Positions 8,285-46,485 of a DNA stretch of 64,000 nucleotides are shown here, in pieces. The notes beneath the pieces are model-generated. The model made no database searches, was not told where the DNA came from, and saw only the letters and a program-made list of their open reading frames with translations. The translations under genes and the position numbers were made by a program. Origin of the DNA: Sciscionella marina DSM 45152 (GTDB taxonomy: Bacteria; Actinomycetota; Actinomycetes; Mycobacteriales; Pseudonocardiaceae); the NCBI RefSeq assembly GCF_000379465.1, contig NZ_KB905381.1, forward strand, positions 248,001 through 312,000, written 5' to 3'. Position 1 is the first letter of the stretch, and each line of letters begins with the position of its first letter.

Positions 8285-9190
8285 TTGCGTTATTTCGCTG
8301 TGCTGGGCGAGGAACTGAGTTACCGCCGCGCCGCGGAGCGGTTGTTCATCACGCAGCCCGCGCTGTCGACGGCGATCAAGCAGCTCGAGCAGCAATTCGG
8401 GGTCAAGCTGATCACCCGCAGTACCCGGCAGGTCGCGCTGACCGAACTGGGTGCCGCGTGGCTGCCCCAGGTGCAGCAGGCGCTCGGCGGCGTCGACACG
8501 GTGATCCAGAATCTGCTCACGCTGTCCGGAAAGCAGCGCGGCCGGTTGCGGATCGGGTATTTCATCGGAACCGGCGCGGATCTGCTTTCCCGTATCGTGC
8601 GTGATTTCGCCAGCGTGCATCCGGAGATCGCGACCGAACCGATCGAGTTCGATTTCGCCGACCCCACCGCGGGTCTCGGCGAGCGCACCACCGAGGTGGC
8701 GATCATCCGGCCACCGGTGGATCTTCCCGGGCACCGGATGCTGATCCTGGACTCCGAGTCCTGGGTGGCCTGTCTGCCGCGGGATCACCGGCTCGCGGGC
8801 CGCGCGGAGGTCGAGATCGGCGAGCTGCTCGATGATCCGATCGTCTGCGCTCCGCCTTCGGCCGGTACCTGGCGGGACTACTGGATGGCGATGGACGCCA
8901 GGGATACGAAGCCGCCGAAGATCGCCGGGGTCGCCGCCACCTACGAGGCGGAGACGACCATGATCGCGCGCGGTCTCGGCATCAGCTTCACCACCTCCTC
9001 GGTCGAGCGGTTCTACGCGCGGCCCGGCGTGGCGTACGTGCCGATCGTGGATCGCTCACCGAGCTACACCGCGCTGGCCTGGGATCCCACCGCCCTGAGC
9101 CCGGAGGCCGATGCGCTGATCCGGTTCGTGCGGGAGCGGCCGAATTTCGGTGCGGGCGAACCCACCGAAGTGCCCCTGGCCCAGCGCTGA
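8285..9190 (+). CDS. LysR-family transcriptional regulator with unclear start
   Basis: LysR activator/repressor with an N-terminal winged HTH (SYRRAAERLFITQPALSTAIKQLE) and a C-terminal periplasmic-binding-like effector domain, ending ...VPLAQR. The family homology clearly begins before TTG 8285: codons 8267-8284 read DITLRQ, giving the classic ITLRQLRYF opening. Yet from the upstream stop at 8192 to 8285 there is no ATG, GTG or TTG, only CTG 8219. GGAGAGG at 8246-8252 and GGAAGG at 8260-8265 precede GTC 8255 and ATC 8270, so a non-standard start or a point mutation or base error in the start codon is likely. It probably controls the permease and transaminase downstream, with a LysR-like site at its stop codon. 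Confidence 0.9.
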   Translation: MRYFAVLGEELSYRRAAERLFITQPALSTAIKQLEQQFGVKLITRSTRQVALTELGAAWLPQVQQALGGVDTVIQNLLTLSGKQRGRLRIGYFIGTGADLLSRIVRDFASVHPEIATEPIEFDFADPTAGLGERTTEVAIIRPPVDLPGHRMLILDSESWVACLPRDHRLAGRAEVEIGELLDDPIVCAPPSAGTWRDYWMAMDARDTKPPKIAGVAATYEAETTMIARGLGISFTTSSVERFYARPGVAYVPIVDRSPSYTALAWDPTALSPEADALIRFVRERPNFGAGEPTEVPLAQR

Positions 9191-9206
9191 TAAATCCACG
9201 TTATCA
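9188..9206. promoter_or_regulatory. LysR-type site TGATAA-N7-TTATCA overlapping the LysR stop codon
   Basis: Perfect 6+6 inverted repeat with a 7-base centre, containing the T-N11-A core typical of LysR proteins. Its left arm includes the TGA stop of the LysR gene, and it lies 94 bases before the permease start, suitable for activating the permease-transaminase unit. Confidence 0.6.
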
Positions 9207-9299
9207 ATACATCGGGAACCGGAACTTCCGCGAAACCCCACCGGTGACGTCTCCTGTTCAACGACTCGCACGATCAACGGGTTCGGAACGGGAGCGGTG

Positions 9300-10805
9300 A
9301 TGGCGGAGGAAACGGTGGCCCGAGCCGATTCGACGGCGCCGGTGCCCGACGCCGAGGACGCCCAGCTGGCCAAGTTCGGCTATACCCAGAAACTCGACCG
9401 CAGCGTGGGCAAGCTCGCCTCGTTCGCGATCGGGTTCGCCACGATCAGCGCGACCACCGCCGTGTTCACCAGTTTCGGCACCGGGTACTTCACCGCGGGC
9501 GGCCCCTTCGTCTGGACCCTGCTGATCGCCGGAGCGGTGTTCGTGGTGTGGGCGTTCATCGCGGCCGATCTGACCGCGAAGCTGCCGCTGGCCGGGTACG
9601 CGTATCAGTGGACGAGCCGGATCAACGGGCCGAGCCTCGGCTGGTTCACCGGATTCATCGCGCTGATGGGCTGGATCAGCGGAATGACCGGCGTCGGCTA
9701 CACCCTCTCCGGCTACATCGGCAGTTTGTTCGGGGTGAGCTTCACGCAGACGCAGCAGATCCTGGTGGCGATCGGCGTGGTGTTCGCCTGTGTGCTGATC
9801 AATCTCTACGGGGTCCGGTTCGCCACCCTGGTGAACAACATCGGGGTCAGCCTGGAACTCGTGGTGACGGTCGGCGCGACGGTCCTGGTCGCGATCATCG
9901 CGTTCCTCGTTCCCGAGCACCACCAGCCGCTGAGCACCCTGTTCGTGGGCAGCCAGCCGGACGGAGCCGGTGGCAGCTACGCGATCGCCTGGCTCGCGGC
10001 CACGCTCGGCCCGTTTTTCGGCCTGATCGGGGTGGAGGCCAGTGCCGATGTCGCCGAGGAGACCCGCGCGGCACGGTTCGTCATACCGCGCACGATGTTC
10101 TACGCGCTGGCCACCTCCATCGTGATCGAGCTCGGCATGTACATCGTCTACGTGCTCGCGATCCGCGATCCGGCCGCGGTGAACGCGCACTCCAGCGCCC
10201 CGATCGAGGAGATCATCAACCAGCAGGCGGGGCCGGTGGTGACGAAGATCGTGGTGGCCTTCGCGCTGACCAACATCCTGGCCTGCCTGCTGGCGAACAT
10301 TCTGGTCGCCACCCGGCTGACCTATTCGATGGCCAGGGACAACATGCTTCCGTTCTCCCGGTTCTGGCGGCGGGTCTCGCCGGGCAGGCGCACCCCGGCC
10401 AACGCGGTCGTCGGGCTCGGCTGCCTTTCCGGTCTGCTGTTGCTGTCCGCGCTGATCAACGCGAAGGCCCTGATCTATTTCATCGGGCTCTCCTCGCTGT
10501 TGATGTTCTGCGTCTACCTGCTCCAGACGATCGGGCTGATGTTCGGCTACCGGAAGGGCACCATCCCGCGCGCCGAACCCGGAACCTTCGATCTGGGCCG
10601 GTTCCGCTTGCCGCTCTATGTCATCGCGCTGGTGGTGTTCGTGATCGTCGCGCTCGCGCTGATCTTCCTGCCGCAGTTCGCCGGAAACGGCTGGGTGTTC
10701 CTCGGCGTGGTCGCGGTCGGTGGGCTGTGGTGGCTGGCCCGGCTGCGCGGCAAGCTCCGCGCGGGGCGGGCGGGCCCGGAGTACGCGAAAACCGGATCGC
10801 CCTGA
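9300..10805 (+). CDS. APC-superfamily amino acid/amine permease
   Basis: 501-residue integral membrane protein with about 12 transmembrane segments. The first is FAIGFATISATTAVFTSFGTGYF with the helix-1 glycine-rich bend of APC transporters, and the last is at about 470-485. It is expected to import an amino acid or primary amine by proton or ion coupling. ATG 9300 is preceded by GGGAGCGG; GTG 9297 is an equal alternative. The gene is followed after 40 bases by an amine-transaminase gene and preceded by LysR, so its substrate is probably the amine processed by that enzyme. The N-terminal ~45 residues are cytosolic and charged. Confidence 0.92.
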   Translation: MAEETVARADSTAPVPDAEDAQLAKFGYTQKLDRSVGKLASFAIGFATISATTAVFTSFGTGYFTAGGPFVWTLLIAGAVFVVWAFIAADLTAKLPLAGYAYQWTSRINGPSLGWFTGFIALMGWISGMTGVGYTLSGYIGSLFGVSFTQTQQILVAIGVVFACVLINLYGVRFATLVNNIGVSLELVVTVGATVLVAIIAFLVPEHHQPLSTLFVGSQPDGAGGSYAIAWLAATLGPFFGLIGVEASADVAEETRAARFVIPRTMFYALATSIVIELGMYIVYVLAIRDPAAVNAHSSAPIEEIINQQAGPVVTKIVVAFALTNILACLLANILVATRLTYSMARDNMLPFSRFWRRVSPGRRTPANAVVGLGCLSGLLLLSALINAKALIYFIGLSSLLMFCVYLLQTIGLMFGYRKGTIPRAEPGTFDLGRFRLPLYVIALVVFVIVALALIFLPQFAGNGWVFLGVVAVGGLWWLARLRGKLRAGRAGPEYAKTGSP

Positions 10806-37769: not shown

Positions 37770-37797
37770 CAGGCACGGGGATTCAGGTACGGGGATT
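37770..37797. repeat. 14-bp tandem duplication spanning the LysR stop codon
   Basis: CAGGCACGGGGATT (37770-37783) and CAGGTACGGGGATT (37784-37797), with a third partial CAGGT following. On the minus strand the second unit encodes the last residues NPRT and the stop lies at the unit junction. Confidence 0.8.
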
Positions 37798-38679
37798 CAG
37801 GTCGAGCGCGCCGACAGTGCGGATCACGTTGCCGATCAGCGGGGCGCGTTCCCGGTCGGGACGCACGGCGAGCGAGATGGTGGAGAAGGCGTCCGCATCG
37901 GTGAGCGGGATGTAGCGCAGGCTCGGCAGTCGCAGCGCGCGCAGTGACTCGGGCACGATCGTGATCCCGGTGTCCGCGGCGGCGAGGCCGAGCAGGGTGG
38001 GGAACTGAACGGCCTCCTGTGCGGCGTGCAGGCGGAATCCGGCACGGTGGCAGAGCGCGGCGATGTGGTCGTAGAGCCGGGAGACCTGGCCGCGCGGGAA
38101 GGTGAGGAACCGTTCCTCGGCGAGCTCGGCGAGCCGTATCTCGGCGAGCTCGGCGAACCGGTGGGATTCGTGCACGGCCACGAGCAGTCGCTCACGCAGC
38201 AGCGGATGCACGGTCAGCCCGGGCGCGGAGCGGACCTCGCGGACGAGCCCGATGTCGAGGCGGCCCTCGCCGAGCGCGTACAGCTGCGGGTCGGTGGTGG
38301 ATTCGCTCAGGTCGATGCTCAGTCCCGGCCAGGACCGGCGCAGCGCGAGCACCAGTTCCGGGATGAGGCGCAGTGCCGCGGAGCTGACGAACCCGATGCG
38401 CAGCAGGCCGATCTCGCCGTGCACCGCCTGCGCGACGGCCGAGGCGGCGTGGTCGGCTTCGGCGAGCACCCGACGCCCCTCGGTGAGCAGTACCTGCCCG
38501 GAGGCGGTGAGCTCCACGCGCCGGGTCGTGCGGTGGAACAGCGCGGTGCCCAGTTCCTTCTCGAACTTGCCGATCTGCTGGCTCAGCGCGGGCTGGGCGA
38601 TGTGCAGGCGATCGGCGGCGCGCCGGAAGCTGTGCTCCTCGGCGACGGCCACGAAATAACGCAGCTGTCGTAACTCCAC
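37783..38679 (-). CDS. LysR-family transcriptional regulator
   Basis: 298-residue LysR protein: HTH SFRRAADRLHIAQPALSQQIGKFEKELG (about 17-44), linker helix, and effector domain. The C-terminus ends in a short tandem repeat, so the last residues may be recently altered. It is divergent from the aldehyde dehydrogenase operon, and a TGATA-N9-TATCA site lies 6 bases upstream of its start. It is therefore the expected autoregulated activator of the 38.8-44.9 kb operon. Confidence 0.93.
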   Translation of the reverse strand: MELRQLRYFVAVAEEHSFRRAADRLHIAQPALSQQIGKFEKELGTALFHRTTRRVELTASGQVLLTEGRRVLAEADHAASAVAQAVHGEIGLLRIGFVSSAALRLIPELVLALRRSWPGLSIDLSESTTDPQLYALGEGRLDIGLVREVRSAPGLTVHPLLRERLLVAVHESHRFAELAEIRLAELAEERFLTFPRGQVSRLYDHIAALCHRAGFRLHAAQEAVQFPTLLGLAAADTGITIVPESLRALRLPSLRYIPLTDADAFSTISLAVRPDRERAPLIGNVIRTVGALDLNPRT

Positions 38680-38684
38680 GTGAT

Positions 38685-38703
38685 TGATACTCCATGCTTA
38701 TCA
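38685..38703. promoter_or_regulatory. LysR-type site TGATA-N9-TATCA
   Basis: Inverted repeat in the 106-base divergent space, overlapping the LysR leader and about 83 bases before the aldehyde dehydrogenase start. Classic recognition-site position for a LysR autoregulator and activator. TTGACA follows at 38709-38714 but without a good -10. Confidence 0.6.
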
Positions 38704-38785
38704 GTGTGTTGACAATAGATAATTCCATATCGGCGCTTCGTTGCTTAGCGTGAGCCTCATCGAACGAACGCGAAGGAGCGAGCCG

Positions 38786-40267
38786 GTGACGGAATCTCTG
38801 ACCACGACCGCGAACGAGCCCGCCGCACTGCGCCATCTCGTCGGTGGCGCCTGGCACGCGGGCGACGGTGCGCAGCGGGAGAGCACGAACCCCGCCCGAC
38901 CGGACGAGGTCGTCGCCCGGTACCGGATCGCGGGGGACGCGCTGCTCGACGAGGCGGTCGCCGCGGCGCGCGGGGCCGCGCGGGAATGGGCCACCGCCGG
39001 TGCGATCGCCCGCGGCAAGGTGCTGCGCAAGGCAGCCGGGCTGCTCGCCGAGCGGGCCGAATCGGTGGCGCTGCTGATGACCCGCGAGGAGGGCAAGACC
39101 CTTCCGGAATCCCGTGCCGAGGTGGAGCTCAGCGTGGAGACGCTGCACTACCACGCGGGACGGGGCCGGTCAGCGGACGGCGTGAGCTATCCGTCCGGGC
39201 ACCCCGACGAGCTCATCCGCACGGTCCGCCGCCCGCTCGGGGTGGTCGCCGCGATCACCCCGTGGAACTTCCCGTTGCAGATCCCGGCGTGGAAGCTGGC
39301 CCCTGCGCTGCTGTGCGGCAACACGGCGGTGTGGAAACCCGCGAGCGAGACGGTAGCGGTCGCCGCGGCCTTCGCGGAGGTGCTCGCCGAGGCCGGACTG
39401 CCGGACGGGGTGCTGAACCTGCTGCTCGGTCCGGGCGAACTCGGCGCGGATCTGGTGGCACGCCCGGAGATCGACGGTGTGACCTTCACCGGCTCGGTGC
39501 CGGTCGGCCGCTCGATCCAGGCCACGGTGCTGCCGCGCGGCGCGAAGGTGCAACTGGAACTGGGCGGGCACAACGCGGCGATCGTGCTCCCGGATGTGGA
39601 CAAGGGCGAGGCGGCCGAGGCGATCGTGGCCGGGGCGATGTCCAGCACCGGGCAGAAATGCACGGCGACCCGGCGGGTGATCGCGGTCGGCGAGGCCTAT
39701 GACGCGCTGGTGCCGGAACTGGTGTCCCGGGTGCGTGCACTGGTGGTCGGCGAGGGGACCGAGGAAGCGAGCCGGATCGGTCCACTGGTCTCGGCGCGAG
39801 CGCGGGAGGAGGTGACCGCGGCGGTGGCCCAGGCCGAGCGTGAAGGGGCCCGGGTGCTCGCGCGCCCGGAACAGCGGCCGCCGGAGACCGGGCACTTCGT
39901 GCAGCCGACGGTGCTCGAAGGGGACACCGGGCTCACCATCTGCCAGGAAGAGGTGTTCGGCCCGGTCGTCACCCTGCTGCGCGCGGACTCGCTGGAGGAG
40001 GCCGTCACGATCGCGAACGGCACCCGGTTCGGGCTCACCGCGGCGGTGTTCACCTGTGACGAGCGAGTCGTGCGTCGCTGCGTCAGCGAACTCGACGCCG
40101 GACTGGTGAAGGTGAACGCGCCGAACACCGGATCGGAACTGCACGCACCCTTCGGCGGGCTGAAGGAATCCTCGTTCCCCGCGCCACGTGAGCAGAATGC
40201 CGACACCAGCGCGGAATTTTTCACCTGGAGCAAGACCGCCTATCTGCGCACCGGGACACCGGCGTGA
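38786..40267 (+). CDS. NAD(P)-dependent aldehyde dehydrogenase
   Basis: 493-residue ALDH. Catalytic Cys292 lies in SSTGQKCTATRR, general base Glu258 in LELGGHNAA, and the oxyanion asparagine in TPWNFPLQIPAWKLAPAL. Fold and SSTGQKCT sequence resemble 2-oxoglutarate-semialdehyde and other semialdehyde dehydrogenases. GTG 38786 follows GAAGGAG at 38772-38778. It heads a five-gene operon; its stop overlaps the GTG of the next gene. Likely role: oxidising an aldehyde released from the amino or peptide-like compound handled by that operon; the substrate is unknown. Confidence 0.93.
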   Translation: MTESLTTTANEPAALRHLVGGAWHAGDGAQRESTNPARPDEVVARYRIAGDALLDEAVAAARGAAREWATAGAIARGKVLRKAAGLLAERAESVALLMTREEGKTLPESRAEVELSVETLHYHAGRGRSADGVSYPSGHPDELIRTVRRPLGVVAAITPWNFPLQIPAWKLAPALLCGNTAVWKPASETVAVAAAFAEVLAEAGLPDGVLNLLLGPGELGADLVARPEIDGVTFTGSVPVGRSIQATVLPRGAKVQLELGGHNAAIVLPDVDKGEAAEAIVAGAMSSTGQKCTATRRVIAVGEAYDALVPELVSRVRALVVGEGTEEASRIGPLVSARAREEVTAAVAQAEREGARVLARPEQRPPETGHFVQPTVLEGDTGLTICQEEVFGPVVTLLRADSLEEAVTIANGTRFGLTAAVFTCDERVVRRCVSELDAGLVKVNAPNTGSELHAPFGGLKESSFPAPREQNADTSAEFFTWSKTAYLRTGTPA

Positions 40268-41943
40268 ACACCCGCGCCGCCGATATCGCGCTCGCGCCCG
40301 AAGAACTCGGCGCGGCGCGCGGTACCCGGCACAGCTTCGCGCGCTCGTTCCTGCGCGCCGCGGCCGATGGCGGCTGGACGGTCGAGACCGCGCACTGGGA
40401 ACTCGACGACGCGGGCCGCGGCACGGCCGTGTACCGGGTTCGCGCCGCGGGCCGGATGTTCGGCTTCGCGGTGTTCGCCACCCGGCTCGCCGAGTCTGAA
40501 CGCACCGACCGGGTCATCGCCGGGAACTGGGACGTGACGGCCTGCCTTGTCGAAGGCGAGGTGGACCGCTCCCGGCTCGCGGCGCTGCGCGAGCAGGTAC
40601 CGCACCAGGAGCGGGGCCGGGCCGATGCACGGACGCTGGTGTGGACGCGAGCCAACCGCAGCAGGCGGTTCTTCGACTATGTGGTGGATCGGCTCGCGTC
40701 CGGGCTCCAGCCGGAGACCTCGGTCCTCGGGGACACCGCCTATATTCTGCGCAGCACGGCCTTCTACAGCAACGGCAAGTTCGGCATGGCCGGGTTCGCC
40801 GAGCTCGGCGCGGATCACCCGCTCGGCGCGCCGTACCGGGCGCAGATGCTCGCGGCCTGGTTGCTGCGCGAGTTCAGCTGCGAACTCGCCGAGCACTGTG
40901 CGGTCTCGCGGGGCCCCGGCGCGGCCCGGCTCGACGAACGCTGGCGCCGTTATCTGGGGCTGGGCAACGCGACCGGGCTCGGCATGGTGCCCTATGTGGT
41001 GAACCATCCGCGGGTGCTCGATGCGTGGTGCACGGCCCGGGAGCGTCCGCTCGCCGCTGCGCGCGGCAGGAAAACCCGGCCGGACGGGGCGGACACCGAA
41101 CGGGTCCGGGAACTGCTCGACCGCGCACGGGAGTATTTCCGCGAACGCGCGGACCTGCACACCGCCCCGTATCTGCCGTACCCGGAACTCGCCGCGCAGC
41201 TGGACGAGCTCGCCGGGCTGCTCGCCGAGTACATCCGCGCGGGCACGGTGCTCGGACGCGCCACCGAACACGCCTGGGACGCGTTGTATCGCGCCGCGCG
41301 CACCCATGGCCCCGAAGCCTGCGGGGCCCTGGAAGCGGTGCTCGTGGAGCCGTATCCGGAACTCGACGCGGAGGTCGAGAAATCGCTGTGGTGCGCGGAA
41401 ATGCTGCGGGTACCGGTCGAATGGGACTGCGCGGCGCTGCGTTCCGTGCTCGATTCCGGCTACCGCTGGGTGGACCGGATCGAGCACGGCGACCGGACGT
41501 ATTTCTGGTTCAGCTCGGCGAACAACGAGGAACCGCGCAGAGGGCGGCGCGGGATCGATCCGGGGGAGTCCGTCGAGTACCCGCTCGATATCGCCGCCCA
41601 GGTGGCCGCGCTGCGCGCCGATCTGAGCACCGCACCGGACGGGCAGCCGCTCGCCGAATTCCTGCTCGCGCATCCCCGGCACCGGGGCATCATCGCGCGG
41701 GTGGGTTCGCTGCACGGGCTGCCCTATGCGGAGGTGCGCGCGAATTTCCTCGCTGCGGACTTCCTTCCCTTGCACATCCAGCGTTTCCAGCTCGCCCGGT
41801 ACGGGATGGAGCACTACGACCCGCAGTCCACGGACTGGCTGCGAGTGGTGCTTTTCTCCGGTGCCCCGCGTGCGGACGAGCTGACCAGCACGGCGGCGGA
41901 CGACTGGCTCTATCCCCGGAAACCCTATCCCCGGAAACCCTAG
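40264..41943 (+). CDS. unrecognised 559-residue protein of the ALDH-M19 operon
   Basis: No family recognised. It is soluble, without signal peptide or membrane segments. It has an N-terminal region with strand-like VYRVRAAGRMFGFAVFATRL and GNWDVTACLVEGEVD; a middle region with FFDYVVDRLASGL, TAYILRSTAFYSNGKFGMAGF and LGNATGLGMVPYVVNHP; and an Arg/Tyr-rich C-terminal region (YRWVDRIEHGDRTYFWFSSA, HPRHRGIIARVGSLHGLPY). Length, domain-like evenness and GTGA coupling to the ALDH gene show a real gene, probably an enzyme of the same pathway. The last ten residues (PRKPYPRKP) come from a tandem repeat that runs through the stop codon. Confidence 0.88.
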   Translation: MNTRAADIALAPEELGAARGTRHSFARSFLRAAADGGWTVETAHWELDDAGRGTAVYRVRAAGRMFGFAVFATRLAESERTDRVIAGNWDVTACLVEGEVDRSRLAALREQVPHQERGRADARTLVWTRANRSRRFFDYVVDRLASGLQPETSVLGDTAYILRSTAFYSNGKFGMAGFAELGADHPLGAPYRAQMLAAWLLREFSCELAEHCAVSRGPGAARLDERWRRYLGLGNATGLGMVPYVVNHPRVLDAWCTARERPLAAARGRKTRPDGADTERVRELLDRAREYFRERADLHTAPYLPYPELAAQLDELAGLLAEYIRAGTVLGRATEHAWDALYRAARTHGPEACGALEAVLVEPYPELDAEVEKSLWCAEMLRVPVEWDCAALRSVLDSGYRWVDRIEHGDRTYFWFSSANNEEPRRGRRGIDPGESVEYPLDIAAQVAALRADLSTAPDGQPLAEFLLAHPRHRGIIARVGSLHGLPYAEVRANFLAADFLPLHIQRFQLARYGMEHYDPQSTDWLRVVLFSGAPRADELTSTAADDWLYPRKPYPRKP

Positions 41944-41971
41944 CCCGCGAAAACCCTAGCTCCGAAAACCC
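41911..41971 (+). repeat. four-copy 15/16-bp minisatellite across a stop codon
   Basis: Units TATCCCCGGAAACCC (41911-41925 and 41926-41940, identical), a 16-base variant (41941-41956) and TAGCTCCGAAAACCC (41957-41971). The first two encode YPRKP twice; the third supplies the TAG stop at 41941; the rest fills the gap to the next gene's ribosome-binding site. Confidence 0.9.
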
Positions 41972-41987
41972 TGAAAGGGAGCCGACA

Positions 41988-42959
41988 ATGGCCGAACGAC
42001 AGCTCGTCGTGGACGGGTTGCAGATCAACAACTGGGACCGTGATGTGCTGCTGGAACTGCGCACCGGCGGCGTGACCGGGGTCAACGCGACCTGTGCTGT
42101 CTGGGAGGGCCCCGAGGAAACGCTGCGCGCGATCGGCGCCTGGTACCAGCTCGTGGCCGAGAACGCGGATCTCGCCCTGCTCGCGGAGCACACCCCGGAC
42201 ATCGAGCGTGCCCGTGAACAGGACAAGGTCGCGGTGCTGCTCGGTTTCCAGAACACCTCCCCGTTCGGCGACGACTACCGCATGGTGGAGGTGTTCCACC
42301 GGCTCGGGGTGCGCGTGGCGCAGCTGACCTACAACATCCAGAACCTGGTCGGCGGGGCCTGTTATGACCCGCAGGACTCCGGGCTGACCAGGTTCGGCGG
42401 CTACATCGTCGAGGAGATGAACCGGGTCGGGATGCTCGTCGATCTCTCCCATGTCGGCAACCGCACCAGCCGGGACGCGGTGGACGCCTCCGCGCTTCCG
42501 GTGGCGATAACCCATGCCAATCCGACCTGGTACCTCGATCATCCGCGGAACAAGCCGGCCGAGGTCATCGAGGCGGTCGCGGCGCGTGGCGGGGTCGTCG
42601 GCTGCTGCCTGTACCCGAACGTCCTCGGCGGGGAACGGACCCCGCGGGACCGGTTCTGCGCGATGGTCGCGCGCCTGGTGGACGAGATCGGCCCGGAACA
42701 CGTCGGCATCGGCAGCGACTGCACTCGCAACCAGCCGGAGGATTTCGTCGGCTGGCTGCGCAACGGCCGTTGGCAGCCGCCGCGTGGTGCCCGCCCGGAA
42801 TGGCCCGCCTGGCCGGACTGGTTCGCCGGACCGGCCGATTTCCCGTCCCTCACCGAAGGATTGCTCGCGGCAGGGCTGGACGAGAAGACGGTGGCCGGGG
42901 TGCTCGGCGGGAACTGGTTGCGCCTGTTCGACACCGTGTTCGCCGGGCGGCAAGGATGA
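41988..42959 (+). CDS. M19 (renal dipeptidase) family protein with a degenerate metal site
   Basis: 323-residue TIM-barrel protein of the membrane-dipeptidase family. Conserved: DLSHVG (His155), ITHANP (His176) and GIGSD (Asp244), three of the usual zinc ligands. Missing: the N-terminal HxD pair, where the protein has VDGLQINNWD, and the bridging Glu, where it has GFQN (Gln88). It may therefore bind one metal or none, and act on something other than a plain dipeptide. No signal peptide, so cytoplasmic. AAAGGGAG precedes ATG 41988. It overlaps the next gene by 4 bases. Confidence 0.9.
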   Translation: MAERQLVVDGLQINNWDRDVLLELRTGGVTGVNATCAVWEGPEETLRAIGAWYQLVAENADLALLAEHTPDIERAREQDKVAVLLGFQNTSPFGDDYRMVEVFHRLGVRVAQLTYNIQNLVGGACYDPQDSGLTRFGGYIVEEMNRVGMLVDLSHVGNRTSRDAVDASALPVAITHANPTWYLDHPRNKPAEVIEAVAARGGVVGCCLYPNVLGGERTPRDRFCAMVARLVDEIGPEHVGIGSDCTRNQPEDFVGWLRNGRWQPPRGARPEWPAWPDWFAGPADFPSLTEGLLAAGLDEKTVAGVLGGNWLRLFDTVFAGRQG

Positions 42960-43612
42960 GCACCATCAGGATCGCGGACCGTGAACTGCGCGAGGCTGCC
43001 TATCGCGCGCTGCGGGCCCTCGCGGTCTCCCACGGGGAAGCGGTGGTCGCGGCCGAACTGGTACTCGCGGCCGAACTGTTCGAGAGTGCGGGGCTTTCCC
43101 TGCTGCTGCGGGAAATCCGGCGCCTCCCGGCCGGTGCGGAATCAGTCGGGTTTGTCCGGGAAGGTGAGTATGCGGTGCTCGCCGACGAGGCCGGACGGGG
43201 GCCACTGCTGCTCGGTCCGCTCGCCGCGGAACTCGCACTGGGTACCGGAAATCCCGTGGTGCTCCAGGAAACCGGGATCGGCCCGGCCCTGGCGCACTGG
43301 ACCGCGCACACCCATGCGACACCGTTCGCCGTCGCCGTTGCCAGGCACGGGGCGGTCACCGAACGGTTCGCGGCGGGCGCGGACGGCACGCTGGTGCGCG
43401 TCCCGGTGCACGATTCGCCCGCACCGCAAGGAATCGAGTCCGGACTCGTGCTCACGGTCCCGGACGAGATCCCGGACGGCGCACGGATATCCCCGGACAC
43501 GGCAGGGGGAATCCACGTGAACGCCGCGGATTGGCGCGCGGCGACGGAGGCGGCGAGCCGATTTCTCGTCCCGGAGAACACACCCGACAACGCGGTTGGA
43601 CGACCATCATGA
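42956..43612 (+). CDS. unrecognised 218-residue protein of the ALDH-M19 operon
   Basis: No firm family. The N-terminal helical part (ADRELREAAYRALRALAVSH, GEAVVAAELVLAAELFESAG) resembles the N-terminal helices of Ldh2/YbjF-type dehydrogenases or of DUF3726 proteins, but the NAD-binding signature is absent. The middle is strand-rich with LLLGPLAAELALGTGNPVVL. ATG 42956 overlaps the dipeptidase stop, and its own stop overlaps the transporter start, both by 4 bases, so it is made in step with them and may be a subunit or partner of the 559-residue protein. Confidence 0.82.
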   Translation: MSTIRIADRELREAAYRALRALAVSHGEAVVAAELVLAAELFESAGLSLLLREIRRLPAGAESVGFVREGEYAVLADEAGRGPLLLGPLAAELALGTGNPVVLQETGIGPALAHWTAHTHATPFAVAVARHGAVTERFAAGADGTLVRVPVHDSPAPQGIESGLVLTVPDEIPDGARISPDTAGGIHVNAADWRAATEAASRFLVPENTPDNAVGRPS

Positions 43613-44949
43613 CCCTCGAAACCCGGAAGACCGGAACCCACGGTTCGCTCGACAATGCGGAACTCAACGGCTTCCACAAACGGCTGGCCCTGTTCTCCTC
43701 GGGCGGGCCGTTCCTGGACGGCTACATCCTGTCCATCATCGGGATCGCGCTCGTGCAGATCCAGCCCGCCTTCGGGATGAGCGCGCTGTGGTCCGGGCTC
43801 ATCGGCGCCTCGGCGCTGATCGGGCTTTTCCTCGGTGGCGCCGTTTTCGGCAGCGTGACCGACCGGATCGGCCGCAAGCTGATGTACACCATAGACCTCG
43901 CCGCGATCATCCTGTGCTCGGTCGCGCAGTTCTTCGTGACCAATGAGGTGGAACTGTTCGTGCTGCGGCTGCTGATCGGGATCGCGGTCGGCGCCGACTA
44001 CCCGATCGCCACAGCGCTCGTCGCGGAGTTCGCCCCGAAGGCCTGGCGGGCGCGGCTGGTCGGCGGGCTCAACGCGATGTGGTTCGTCGGGGCCACGGTG
44101 GCCGCGTTCGTCGGCTACGCGCTGCTGCACGTCGAGGACGGCTGGAAATGGATGCTGCTCTCCTCCGCGGTTCCGGCGGTGCTGATCGTCATCGCGCGCA
44201 CCAGCATCCCCGAATCACCGCGCTGGCTCGCGGCCAAGGGACGCACCGAGGAGGCGCGTGCCGTGCTGCGCAAGACCATCGGCCCGGACGCGCGGCTCGA
44301 CGATCTGCCCGAGGACCAGCCGAGCGGCGGCTCGGTGCGCGCCGTGCTCAGCAAGGGCTATCTGTCCCGGGTCGTGTTCATCTCGCTGTTCTGGACCGCG
44401 ACCGTGGTGCCGTTGTTCGCGATCTACGCCTTCGGACCGCAGATCCTTTCCCTGTTCCGGCTCGAGGACGGCAACGAGGCCAACCTCGGATCGGGGCTGA
44501 TCAACGTATTCTTCCTGGTCGGCAATGTGCTCGCGCTGCTACTCGTGGACCGGATCGGCAGGCGTCCGGTGCTCATCGGCGGATTCCTGGTTTCCGGGGC
44601 CGGGCTGCTCTATCTCGCGATCGCACCCGATGCGAGCACCCTGCTCGTGGTCGTGGCGTTCGCCGCGTACGCGGTGTTCAACGGCGGACCGTCCATTTTG
44701 GAATGGATCTACCCGAACGAATTGTTCCCCACCCAGGTGCGGGCCACCGCCGTCGGACTGTGTACCGGGATCAGCCGGATCGGAGCAGCGGTCGGCACCT
44801 TCGCCACCCCGTGGGCACTGGCCAATCTCGGGCTCTCGGCCACGATGTACATCGCGGCGGGTATCGCCCTTTCCGGGGCGCTGGCCAGCCTGCTCATGGC
44901 TCCGGAGACCAAGGGAAGGGACCTGGACGAGACCGCATCGCTGGGCTGA
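43609..44949 (+). CDS. MFS metabolite:proton symporter
   Basis: 446-residue, 12-helix transporter of the sugar/aromatic-acid porter clan: motif A GSVTDRIGRKLMY, central loop PESPRWLAAKGR, C-terminal PETKGRDLDE. The start ATG 43609 overlaps the preceding stop (ATGA). As the last gene of the operon it should import the compound degraded by the ALDH, M19 and two unknown proteins. The convergent NCS1 permease begins its stop only 5 bases beyond. Confidence 0.92.
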   Translation: MTLETRKTGTHGSLDNAELNGFHKRLALFSSGGPFLDGYILSIIGIALVQIQPAFGMSALWSGLIGASALIGLFLGGAVFGSVTDRIGRKLMYTIDLAAIILCSVAQFFVTNEVELFVLRLLIGIAVGADYPIATALVAEFAPKAWRARLVGGLNAMWFVGATVAAFVGYALLHVEDGWKWMLLSSAVPAVLIVIARTSIPESPRWLAAKGRTEEARAVLRKTIGPDARLDDLPEDQPSGGSVRAVLSKGYLSRVVFISLFWTATVVPLFAIYAFGPQILSLFRLEDGNEANLGSGLINVFFLVGNVLALLLVDRIGRRPVLIGGFLVSGAGLLYLAIAPDASTLLVVVAFAAYAVFNGGPSILEWIYPNELFPTQVRATAVGLCTGISRIGAAVGTFATPWALANLGLSATMYIAAGIALSGALASLLMAPETKGRDLDETASLG

Positions 44950-44954
44950 ACCGC

Positions 44955-46379
44955 TCAGCCGGGCGGCAGGATCGTCTCCGCGGGAGCCGCCGAACCGGTG
45001 CGCTTGGTCAGCACCCAGTACAGCACCGCGGGAATGACCAGCCCGATGATCCAGGAGATGTCCGCGCCACCGAGCGGTTCCACGAGCGGACCGGTGTAGA
45101 ACGCCGTGGACAGGAACGGAAGCTGGGCGAGCACGCCGATGATGTAGGCGGTGAGCGCGGGCATCCGCCAGCGTCCGTAGCGTCCGCCCGGATCGGAGAG
45201 CGCGGGCAGGTCGTAGCGCTCCTTCGCGATCAGGTAGTAGTCGACCAGGTTCACCGCGCTCCACGGTGTGAAGAAGGTCAGCAGGAACAACAGGAACGTG
45301 GAGAAGGAGTCCAGGAAATCGCCGCGCCCGGCGAGGGCGAGCACGGTGCCCGCGGCCATGATCGCGCTGATCCAGGTGGCCCGCGCGAACTTCGAAACCT
45401 CGCGCTGGCCGCGGAATCCGCTGATGATCGTGGTGATCGTCATGAACCCGCCGTACCCGTCGAGCACGCTGACCGTCAGCTTGCCGAAGGCGATCACGAA
45501 GTACAGCACGCCCGCCATCGCCCCGGCCCCGCCGAGCCCGACGATGTAGCCGACCTCATGACCGGTGAACGCGCCACCCGCGGCCGCCGCGGCCACCGCG
45601 CCGAAGCTCATCGCCCACTGCGCCCCGAGCACCGAACCGCCGAAGGTCCACCAGAACGTCGCCCGCGCAGAGGTGGACCGGGGCAGATAGCGCGAATAGT
45701 CCGCGACATAGGGACCGAAGGCGAGCTGCCAGGACGCGGCAAGCGAGATGGCGAGCAGGAACAGCGGGAAGTCGAATCCGCCCGGATGCAGGATGGCGGG
45801 CACATCCACGCTGGTGCACAGCCGCACCACCAGATAGAGGAAGGCCAGCGCGCCCACCACACTGGCCACCCGGCCCACCGCGTGGATCAGCCGGTAGCCG
45901 ATCACCGTCACGACGGCGGTGATCACCGCGAACAGCACGATGCCGAGCACATCGGGTGCCCCGAGCAGGCTGGCCAGCGCCTGGCCGGCGAGCACCGCCC
46001 CGCTGGCGAAGAACCCGATGTACATCAGCACCACGAGCACCAGTGGGACCGCCGCGCCGAACACACCGAACTGCGCGCGGCTGGAGATCATCTGCGGCAG
46101 GCCGAGTTTCGGTCCCTGCGCGGAATGCAGCGCCATCACCGCACCGCCGAGCGCGTTACCGATCAGCAGGCCGAGCACCGCCCAGAACGCCCCGGAACCG
46201 AACACCACCGCGAGCGCCCCGGTGACCACCGTGGTGATCTGCAGATTCGTGCCGAACCACAGGGTGAACTGGTTGACCGGCCGCCCATGCCGTTCGGCGT
46301 CCGGGACCACCCCGATCGAGCGCCGTTCGACCAGTCCACCGGAACGCACCGTGCTCGGTTCACTCGTGGCCTCGGTCAT
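44955..46379 (-). CDS. NCS1-family nucleobase/allantoin/hydantoin-type permease
   Basis: 474-residue cation symporter of the nucleobase:cation-symporter-1 family, with about 12 helices. Marks are LWFGTNLQITTVVTGALAV in helix 1, AQFGVFGAAVPLVLVVLM, and WSAVNLVDYYLIAKERYDL in helix 10-11. Cargo could be cytosine, uracil, allantoin or hydantoin. GGAGG precedes ATG 46379. It converges on the MFS gene. Its upstream region holds the palindrome at 46486, which suggests IclR- or GntR-like control. It may supply a nitrogen substrate to the neighbouring M19 operon, but it is not part of that transcript. Confidence 0.92.
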   Translation of the reverse strand: MTEATSEPSTVRSGGLVERRSIGVVPDAERHGRPVNQFTLWFGTNLQITTVVTGALAVVFGSGAFWAVLGLLIGNALGGAVMALHSAQGPKLGLPQMISSRAQFGVFGAAVPLVLVVLMYIGFFASGAVLAGQALASLLGAPDVLGIVLFAVITAVVTVIGYRLIHAVGRVASVVGALAFLYLVVRLCTSVDVPAILHPGGFDFPLFLLAISLAASWQLAFGPYVADYSRYLPRSTSARATFWWTFGGSVLGAQWAMSFGAVAAAAAGGAFTGHEVGYIVGLGGAGAMAGVLYFVIAFGKLTVSVLDGYGGFMTITTIISGFRGQREVSKFARATWISAIMAAGTVLALAGRGDFLDSFSTFLLFLLTFFTPWSAVNLVDYYLIAKERYDLPALSDPGGRYGRWRMPALTAYIIGVLAQLPFLSTAFYTGPLVEPLGGADISWIIGLVIPAVLYWVLTKRTGSAAPAETILPPG

Positions 46380-46485
46380 CCACACCTCCGTTGGTCGCTC
46401 GATCCCCGCCACAGCATCGGATGCGGCTCACCGGTCTGCCAGTGCCCGGATTCCGAAGCAGTCTCGGATACCAGACCTGGATCCT

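Follow-up and report, generated by a model that had tools for sequence, protein, structure and literature searches.

What chemistry is carried out by an operon in which an aldehyde dehydrogenase (ALDH) and a transporter flank two proteins that a first-pass annotation could place in no family and a dipeptidase-like protein that has lost key metal ligands? The question is raised by five genes at positions 38786-44949 on the plus strand of a 64,000-nucleotide stretch of Sciscionella marina DSM 45152 (contig NZ_KB905381.1, positions 248,001 to 312,000; hereafter the window), which encode, in this order, ALDH, a 559-aa protein (U559), a variant of the M19 membrane dipeptidase fold, a 218-aa protein (U218) and a major facilitator superfamily (MFS) transporter. 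U559, the M19 variant and U218 are conserved as a unit, and their genes often keep the company of betaine transporter genes. On balance, the operon is likely to be a LysR-controlled catabolic unit for a betaine-type (quaternary or N-methylated) amine, in which a complex of U559, U218 and M19 would act before ALDH.

Conservation and layout of the operon

Co-occurrence of the genes in other genomes had been set beforehand as a test of the operon. Our set comprised 28 loci, namely the window itself, L006-L010, L013-L016 and 18 from plasmids; the plasmid loci were hand-picked rather than random, 17 from the listed U559 matches and one, L021, via an M19 match, so that L021 contains M19 by choice of selection. 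L030 (Aminobacter pSR7) was dropped for its broken U559, and L017 (S. meliloti 1021), which has no annotation, was left unused. U559, the variant M19 and U218 occur together in 28/28 loci, spanning two phyla, and 21 of these loci remain at less than 80% U559 identity. The core genes are co-stranded within 3.2-5.3 kb, except in Pseudomonas MPC6, where M19 is divergent, and they appear in three orders: ALDH-U559-M19-U218, ALDH-M19-(BCCT)-U559-U218 and U559-U218-M19. Twenty-one loci are of a LysR/ALDH type, six of an IclR type and one (L016) starts at a contig edge; an ALDH gene was found in 21/28. A tree resolved three supported U559 groups, actinobacterial (99/98), proteobacterial LysR-type (100/99) and IclR-type (100/100). 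Pairwise distances of U559, M19, U218 (28 loci) and ALDH (21 loci) agree with r of 0.82-0.97, as compared with 0.23-0.51 for the largest of 2000 permutations per pair. The genes thus form a real and conserved module for catabolism, of which one core family, U559, is a true orphan.

The coordinates of the window confirm the layout that the first-pass annotation had described from the sequence, with 4-base overlaps at three of the four junctions (ALDH/U559, M19/U218 and U218/MFS) and a divergent gene for a LysR-type regulator (37783-38679, minus strand, 298 aa; Pfam HTH_1 1.3e-25, LysR_substrate 2.7e-43); the remaining junction, between U559 and M19, has a 44-base spacer. The LysR-type site predicted alongside it was located at 38685-38703 as the dyad TGATA-N9-TATCA, a probable LysR binding site lying in an intergenic stretch conserved across five aligned loci; the dyad pattern occurs twice in the window against 0.01 expected. 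This LysR/ALDH stretch with its dyad is similar among Sciscionella, two Rhodococcus and one Mycolicibacterium, the left arm reading TAATA by eye in L006, and a LysR orthologue (68-96% by tblastn) is likewise divergent in L006-L009. The second copy of the dyad (9188-9206) adjoins another LysR-like open reading frame (ORF; 8285-9190); on its other side lie an ORF at 9150-10805, amino-acid permease-like by eye, and then an aminotransferase-like ORF. In Rhodococcus koreensis, a TnpB-type, transposon-like ORF (by eye; L007:10797-12023) lies between U559 and M19.

The outer genes of the operon encode ALDH (38786-40267, plus strand, 493 aa, GTG start; Pfam Aldedh 7.8e-141) and a probable importer of the MFS type (43609-44949, plus strand, 446 aa; Pfam Sugar_tr 4.8e-68). 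The nearest NCBIfam model to ALDH is alpha-ketoglutaric semialdehyde dehydrogenase, and its 468.6 bits against a cut-off of 770 rule ALDH out as an equivalog of that enzyme. For the MFS protein, the sugar porter, organic cation and aromatic acid subfamilies score similarly in NCBIfam, all below cut-off. An NCS1-type permease gene (44955-46412; Transp_cyt_pur 3.1e-53) converges on the MFS gene at a distance of 5 bases; it is retained in Sciscionella L006, and tblastn revealed none at the Rhodococcus loci.

The three core proteins

The variant M19 protein (41988-42959, plus strand, 323 aa) matches Pfam Peptidase_M19 (PF01244) at 1.5e-72 and 244.9 bits. We took the binuclear metal site of the family, presumably as in renal dipeptidase, to comprise HxD, a bridging Glu and two His, and read these ligands from an alignment of 30 rows, in which a canonical M19 of the same genome served as reference for 29 variants (those of the 28 loci and one M19-VOC fusion). 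HxD is lost in 29/29 variants (the aligned span of L007 lacks the first position) and the bridging Glu is replaced by Gln in 29/29, in agreement with the first reading of this protein as one that had lost key ligands. Both His and the Arg are retained in 30/30 rows, canonical included, and the Asp of GSD/GTD was found in 28/28 (22 + 6) by pattern reading, as the alignment had misplaced it. Judged by these residues, the protein is assigned to the M19 fold and not to active dipeptidases. It falls within a kind already represented among solved structures; the closest PDB chain, 2i5g (E 8.5e-70; titled 'amidohydrolase' only), shows the same ligand losses. At four M19-variant loci without a listed U559-like neighbour, a gene for a FAD-dependent oxidoreductase adjoins or lies near M19 in three, which hints that the M19 variant partners amine-oxidising enzymes; no product at these four loci is named BCCT or glycine-betaine, a small control, and two of them list ABC (ATP-binding cassette) transporters of unnamed substrate. 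The window's genome encodes a further variant M19 elsewhere (contig C40, L036:2803-4413; Pfam 4.2e-77 and 2.9e-8), which has lost the same ligands and is fused to a glyoxalase/VOC domain. A LysR-like ORF precedes its gene, and an MFS gene overlaps it on the downstream side.

U559 (40264-41943, plus strand, GTG start) is a core protein without a known family: it matched no family in Pfam at E<=10 and none in NCBIfam at E<=1, and among 20 family members scanned no library match was common to more than one, the best PDB match being 0.074. A comparison with Ldh_2 by hhalign gave 0.1%. U559 was found in 5/396 sampled genomes of the phylum, its own counted (Sciscionella, two Rhodococcus, a Mycolicibacterium metagenome-assembled genome and a Nocardioides), and it is matched by 168 plasmid records, of which 167 cover at least 80% of the query, all below 60% identity. 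No further U559 sequences were found in viral_contigs, and two Erysipelotrichaceae matches (40-42% over only 54-60 residues, E 6e-4) were discounted. In L003 and L004 (genomes G129 and G151) the matched span holds one TGA, perhaps a break or an overrun past the gene end, and the broken U559 of Aminobacter pSR7 is a piece of about 250 residues in two annotated ORFs after an IclR gene (L030:968-1928). In Mesorhizobium sp. 131-2-1, U559 and DUF3726 form a single 814-aa protein (L025:11944-14388; DUF3726 2.7e-12), which suggests that the two work together.

This fusion bears on U218 (42956-43612, plus strand), for which Pfam returned no family at E<=10 and NCBIfam, at E<=1, two weak matches (0.017 and 0.22) far under cut-off. 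DUF3726 (PF12525) was matched at E<=10 by 5/8 family members scanned, the window's U218 not among them, and the best of these matches (8.3e-4, 19.6 bits) falls below the Pfam gathering threshold of 22.1. Profile-profile comparison by hhalign aligned the U218 family to the DUF3726 proteins found in proteobacterial clusters at 94.6% (E 7.1e-8, 193 columns); the IclR-type U218s scored 95.1% against those proteins and 81% against the actinobacterial U218s. Both kinds of protein share a gene position beside U559. By profile and position, U218 is assigned as a remote DUF3726 member; a PF12525 search matched 0/21 related genomes and likewise 0/14 controls and so did not discriminate. The first-pass view of two unrecognised families holds for U559, which matches none, and not for U218, which also resembles Ldh_2 in its predicted fold.

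Structure prediction, proposed earlier for both proteins, gave an Ldh_2-type fold for U218 and a poor model for U559 (six-sequence input; pLDDT 60, pTM 0.48), from which Foldseek returned 0/109 matches at E<=0.001. Only the best of the five AlphaFold2 models of U218 is confident (pLDDT 79, pTM 0.79, the other four averaging 44-50), and the fold assignment uses that model, for which the top 26 Foldseek rows are all Ldh_2-type by description, 18 of them at E<=0.001 with TMq 0.41-0.57. The family motifs are largely missing from U218, SHG being found in 2/28 (elsewhere in the protein), a GTNP-type motif in 1/28 (L013) and GGxKG in 0/28, as compared with 8/9, 9/9 and 9/9 in the full Ldh_2 proteins of the same loci. 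By sequence profile the likeness is weak (13% and 21%, over 39-41 N-terminal columns), and U218 is called Ldh_2-type on account of its predicted fold and of one relative, the 345-aa protein of L013, which matches Ldh_2 at 1.9e-7. Going by the model, we take U218 to be a shortened Ldh_2-fold protein that perhaps no longer acts as a dehydrogenase.

Substrate class and proposed reaction

The genes that accompany the core offer clues to its substrate. A BCCT or glycine-betaine ABC (OpuA-type) gene is present in 14/22 non-IclR-type clusters, or 10/16 without near copies, with Pfam support such as BCCT 1.3e-147 (L014) and 2.4e-139 (L010) and OpuAC 6.8e-29 (L016). Genes of methylated-amine metabolism lie close by in several genomes: in Shinella and Roseateles the cluster is adjoined by sarcosine oxidase and purU; Phaeobacter L045 has sarcosine oxidase near it, together with a DAO+GCV_T flavoprotein and a Rieske oxygenase whose nearest model is GbcA (96.7 bits against a cut-off of 670); a GbcA-like Rieske gene also lies near the cluster in Pseudomonas MPC6, and an MttB-family gene in Mesorhizobium. 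RidA is present in 8/22 non-IclR loci and 4/6 IclR-type loci, and a full Ldh_2 gene adjoins the core in 9/28. In excerpts of one study, P. inhibens is reported to have a shorter lag with betaine and stachydrine (PMC11306105), which is circumstantial only. Hydroxyproline or proline betaine, suggested by Pseudomonas MPC6 alone among the loci, was not adopted as the substrate. A lone ectoine synthase gene (L018:19563-19943; Pfam 1.2e-53) lies near the Shinella cluster, and no ectA or ectB is listed in the fetched stretch.

From this company of genes we infer the substrate class, and we likewise propose the existence of a complex, the bond that it breaks and the sequence of steps. The solute would be taken up by the transporter, which is of the MFS type in the window and BCCT or glycine-betaine ABC in the majority of related LysR-type clusters; U559, U218 and the variant M19 would then jointly, most likely as one complex, cleave a C-N bond or strip an N-substituent. 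RidA, where present, would clear an imine or enamine by-product, ALDH would oxidise the freed (semi)aldehyde, and LysR would sense the substrate or product. The release of an aldehyde is plausible. The catabolic operon of transporter, altered dipeptidase-fold protein and ALDH that was first proposed is upheld, while its suggested amide-linked substrate gives way to the betaine-type methylated amines favoured by the neighbourhoods. A bolder version, which we hold only tentatively and regard as rather unlikely, is that U559, U218 and the metal-poor M19 form an undescribed complex that cleaves betaine or amine C-N bonds without a Rieske, flavin or cobalamin partner, with a new catalytic protein at its centre and two degenerate enzyme folds recruited as the surrounding subunits.

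Several observations weigh against a betaine-type substrate or against a firm reading of the module. The window's own cluster has an MFS gene in place of a betaine-type transporter, and this MFS type, found in 6/22 non-IclR loci, gives no pointer to betaines; the cluster of Phaeobacter L026 has neither, and in L025 a glycine-betaine permease lies only about 11 kb upstream. The agreement of distances is partly due to shared ancestry, the loci were hand-picked, with L021 chosen through its M19, no chemistry can be read from U559 because its model is poor and without Foldseek matches at the threshold used, and the open-licence literature yielded no phenotype for these operon genes. At the IclR-type loci the transporters differ (Pot-like ABC in 5/6, a TTT-type binding protein in Variovorax) and, in 4/6, a gabT or class III aminotransferase gene is nearby, so that the core may not necessarily act on a quaternary amine. 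These loci, with SSADH in 3/6 and RidA as above, are consistent with the same module acting on another amine (an omega-amino acid, a polyamine derivative or an N-substituted amino acid), the betaine transporters marking some branches only; the window's MFS importer and its ALDH, nearest to ketoglutaric semialdehyde dehydrogenase, fit such a substrate as well. The IclR-type U559s nevertheless form a clade apart from the window's actinobacterial one, where 4/10 loci have BCCT or OpuAC genes, and we consider another amine a possible but somewhat unlikely substrate.

Were M19 a working dipeptidase, the operon would degrade a dipeptide or an N-acyl amino acid, as the strong Peptidase_M19 match and the retained His pair, Arg and Asp might suggest. 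The uniform loss of HxD and of the bridging Glu, together with BCCT, OpuA or MFS genes in 20/22 non-IclR loci (no search was aimed at peptide transporters as such), makes this improbable. BCCT and OpuA carriers also function in osmoprotection, in keeping with a stress or osmolyte-uptake operon that is not catabolic; this is the least probable of the explanations, as ALDH and the neighbouring Ldh_2, RidA, sarcosine oxidase and aminotransferase genes are of a catabolic nature and control is by a local LysR or IclR regulator.

A betaine-type substrate would have a bearing beyond this locus. Betaines are abundant osmolytes of plants and algae, and their breakdown makes carbon, nitrogen and methyl groups available in soils and in the sea. 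The gene set probably enables bacteria of these habitats to feed on a betaine-like compound (a methylated amine) through a pathway not yet worked out. A gene set kept in two phyla, with a core protein named by no searched library, amounts to a missing step that is directly testable, and a role for DUF3726 and for the altered M19 kind of 2i5g would follow.

Relation to known systems

No characterised pathway family was found for the operon in the libraries and literature searched, as the first-pass annotation had anticipated in calling its chemistry that of no known pathway. Our search of the open-licence literature found no published description of the cluster, which does not appear in excerpts of PMC12093977, PMC10949508, PMC10963909, PMC4744692, PMC11306105 and PMC12478193, and nothing on DUF3726, on PA5396 with dipeptidase, or on SMb20378, SMb20379 and SMb20384-20387 (tags inferred from gene order); for SMb20383, excerpts gave transport induction only.

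Among known enzymes, the type-2 malate/lactate dehydrogenases (Ldh_2: YiaK, ureidoglycolate dehydrogenase, piperideine-2-carboxylate reductase) are alike in predicted fold to U218, which differs from them in being about 115 aa shorter and in lacking the family motifs at their places. The Rieske-type carnitine and glycine-betaine monooxygenase pathways share with the operon the logic of a betaine transporter and an aldehyde dehydrogenase, a pairing known for carnitine monooxygenase, whereas the operon of the window encodes no Rieske oxygenase. For M19, the solved relative 2i5g is, we assume, PA5396 of the dimethylglycine cluster. According to excerpts of PMC12093977, a predicted dipeptidase and a hypothetical gene precede dgcAB in V. 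natriegens and P. aeruginosa, and this cluster of Pseudomonas and Vibrio (pepD - hp - dgcAB - fixAB) likewise has a predicted dipeptidase next to a hypothetical protein within an operon for methylated amines. Unlike it, the operon of the window is without dgcA, dgcB and fixAB and combines its M19 with U559, a DUF3726-like U218, ALDH and LysR.

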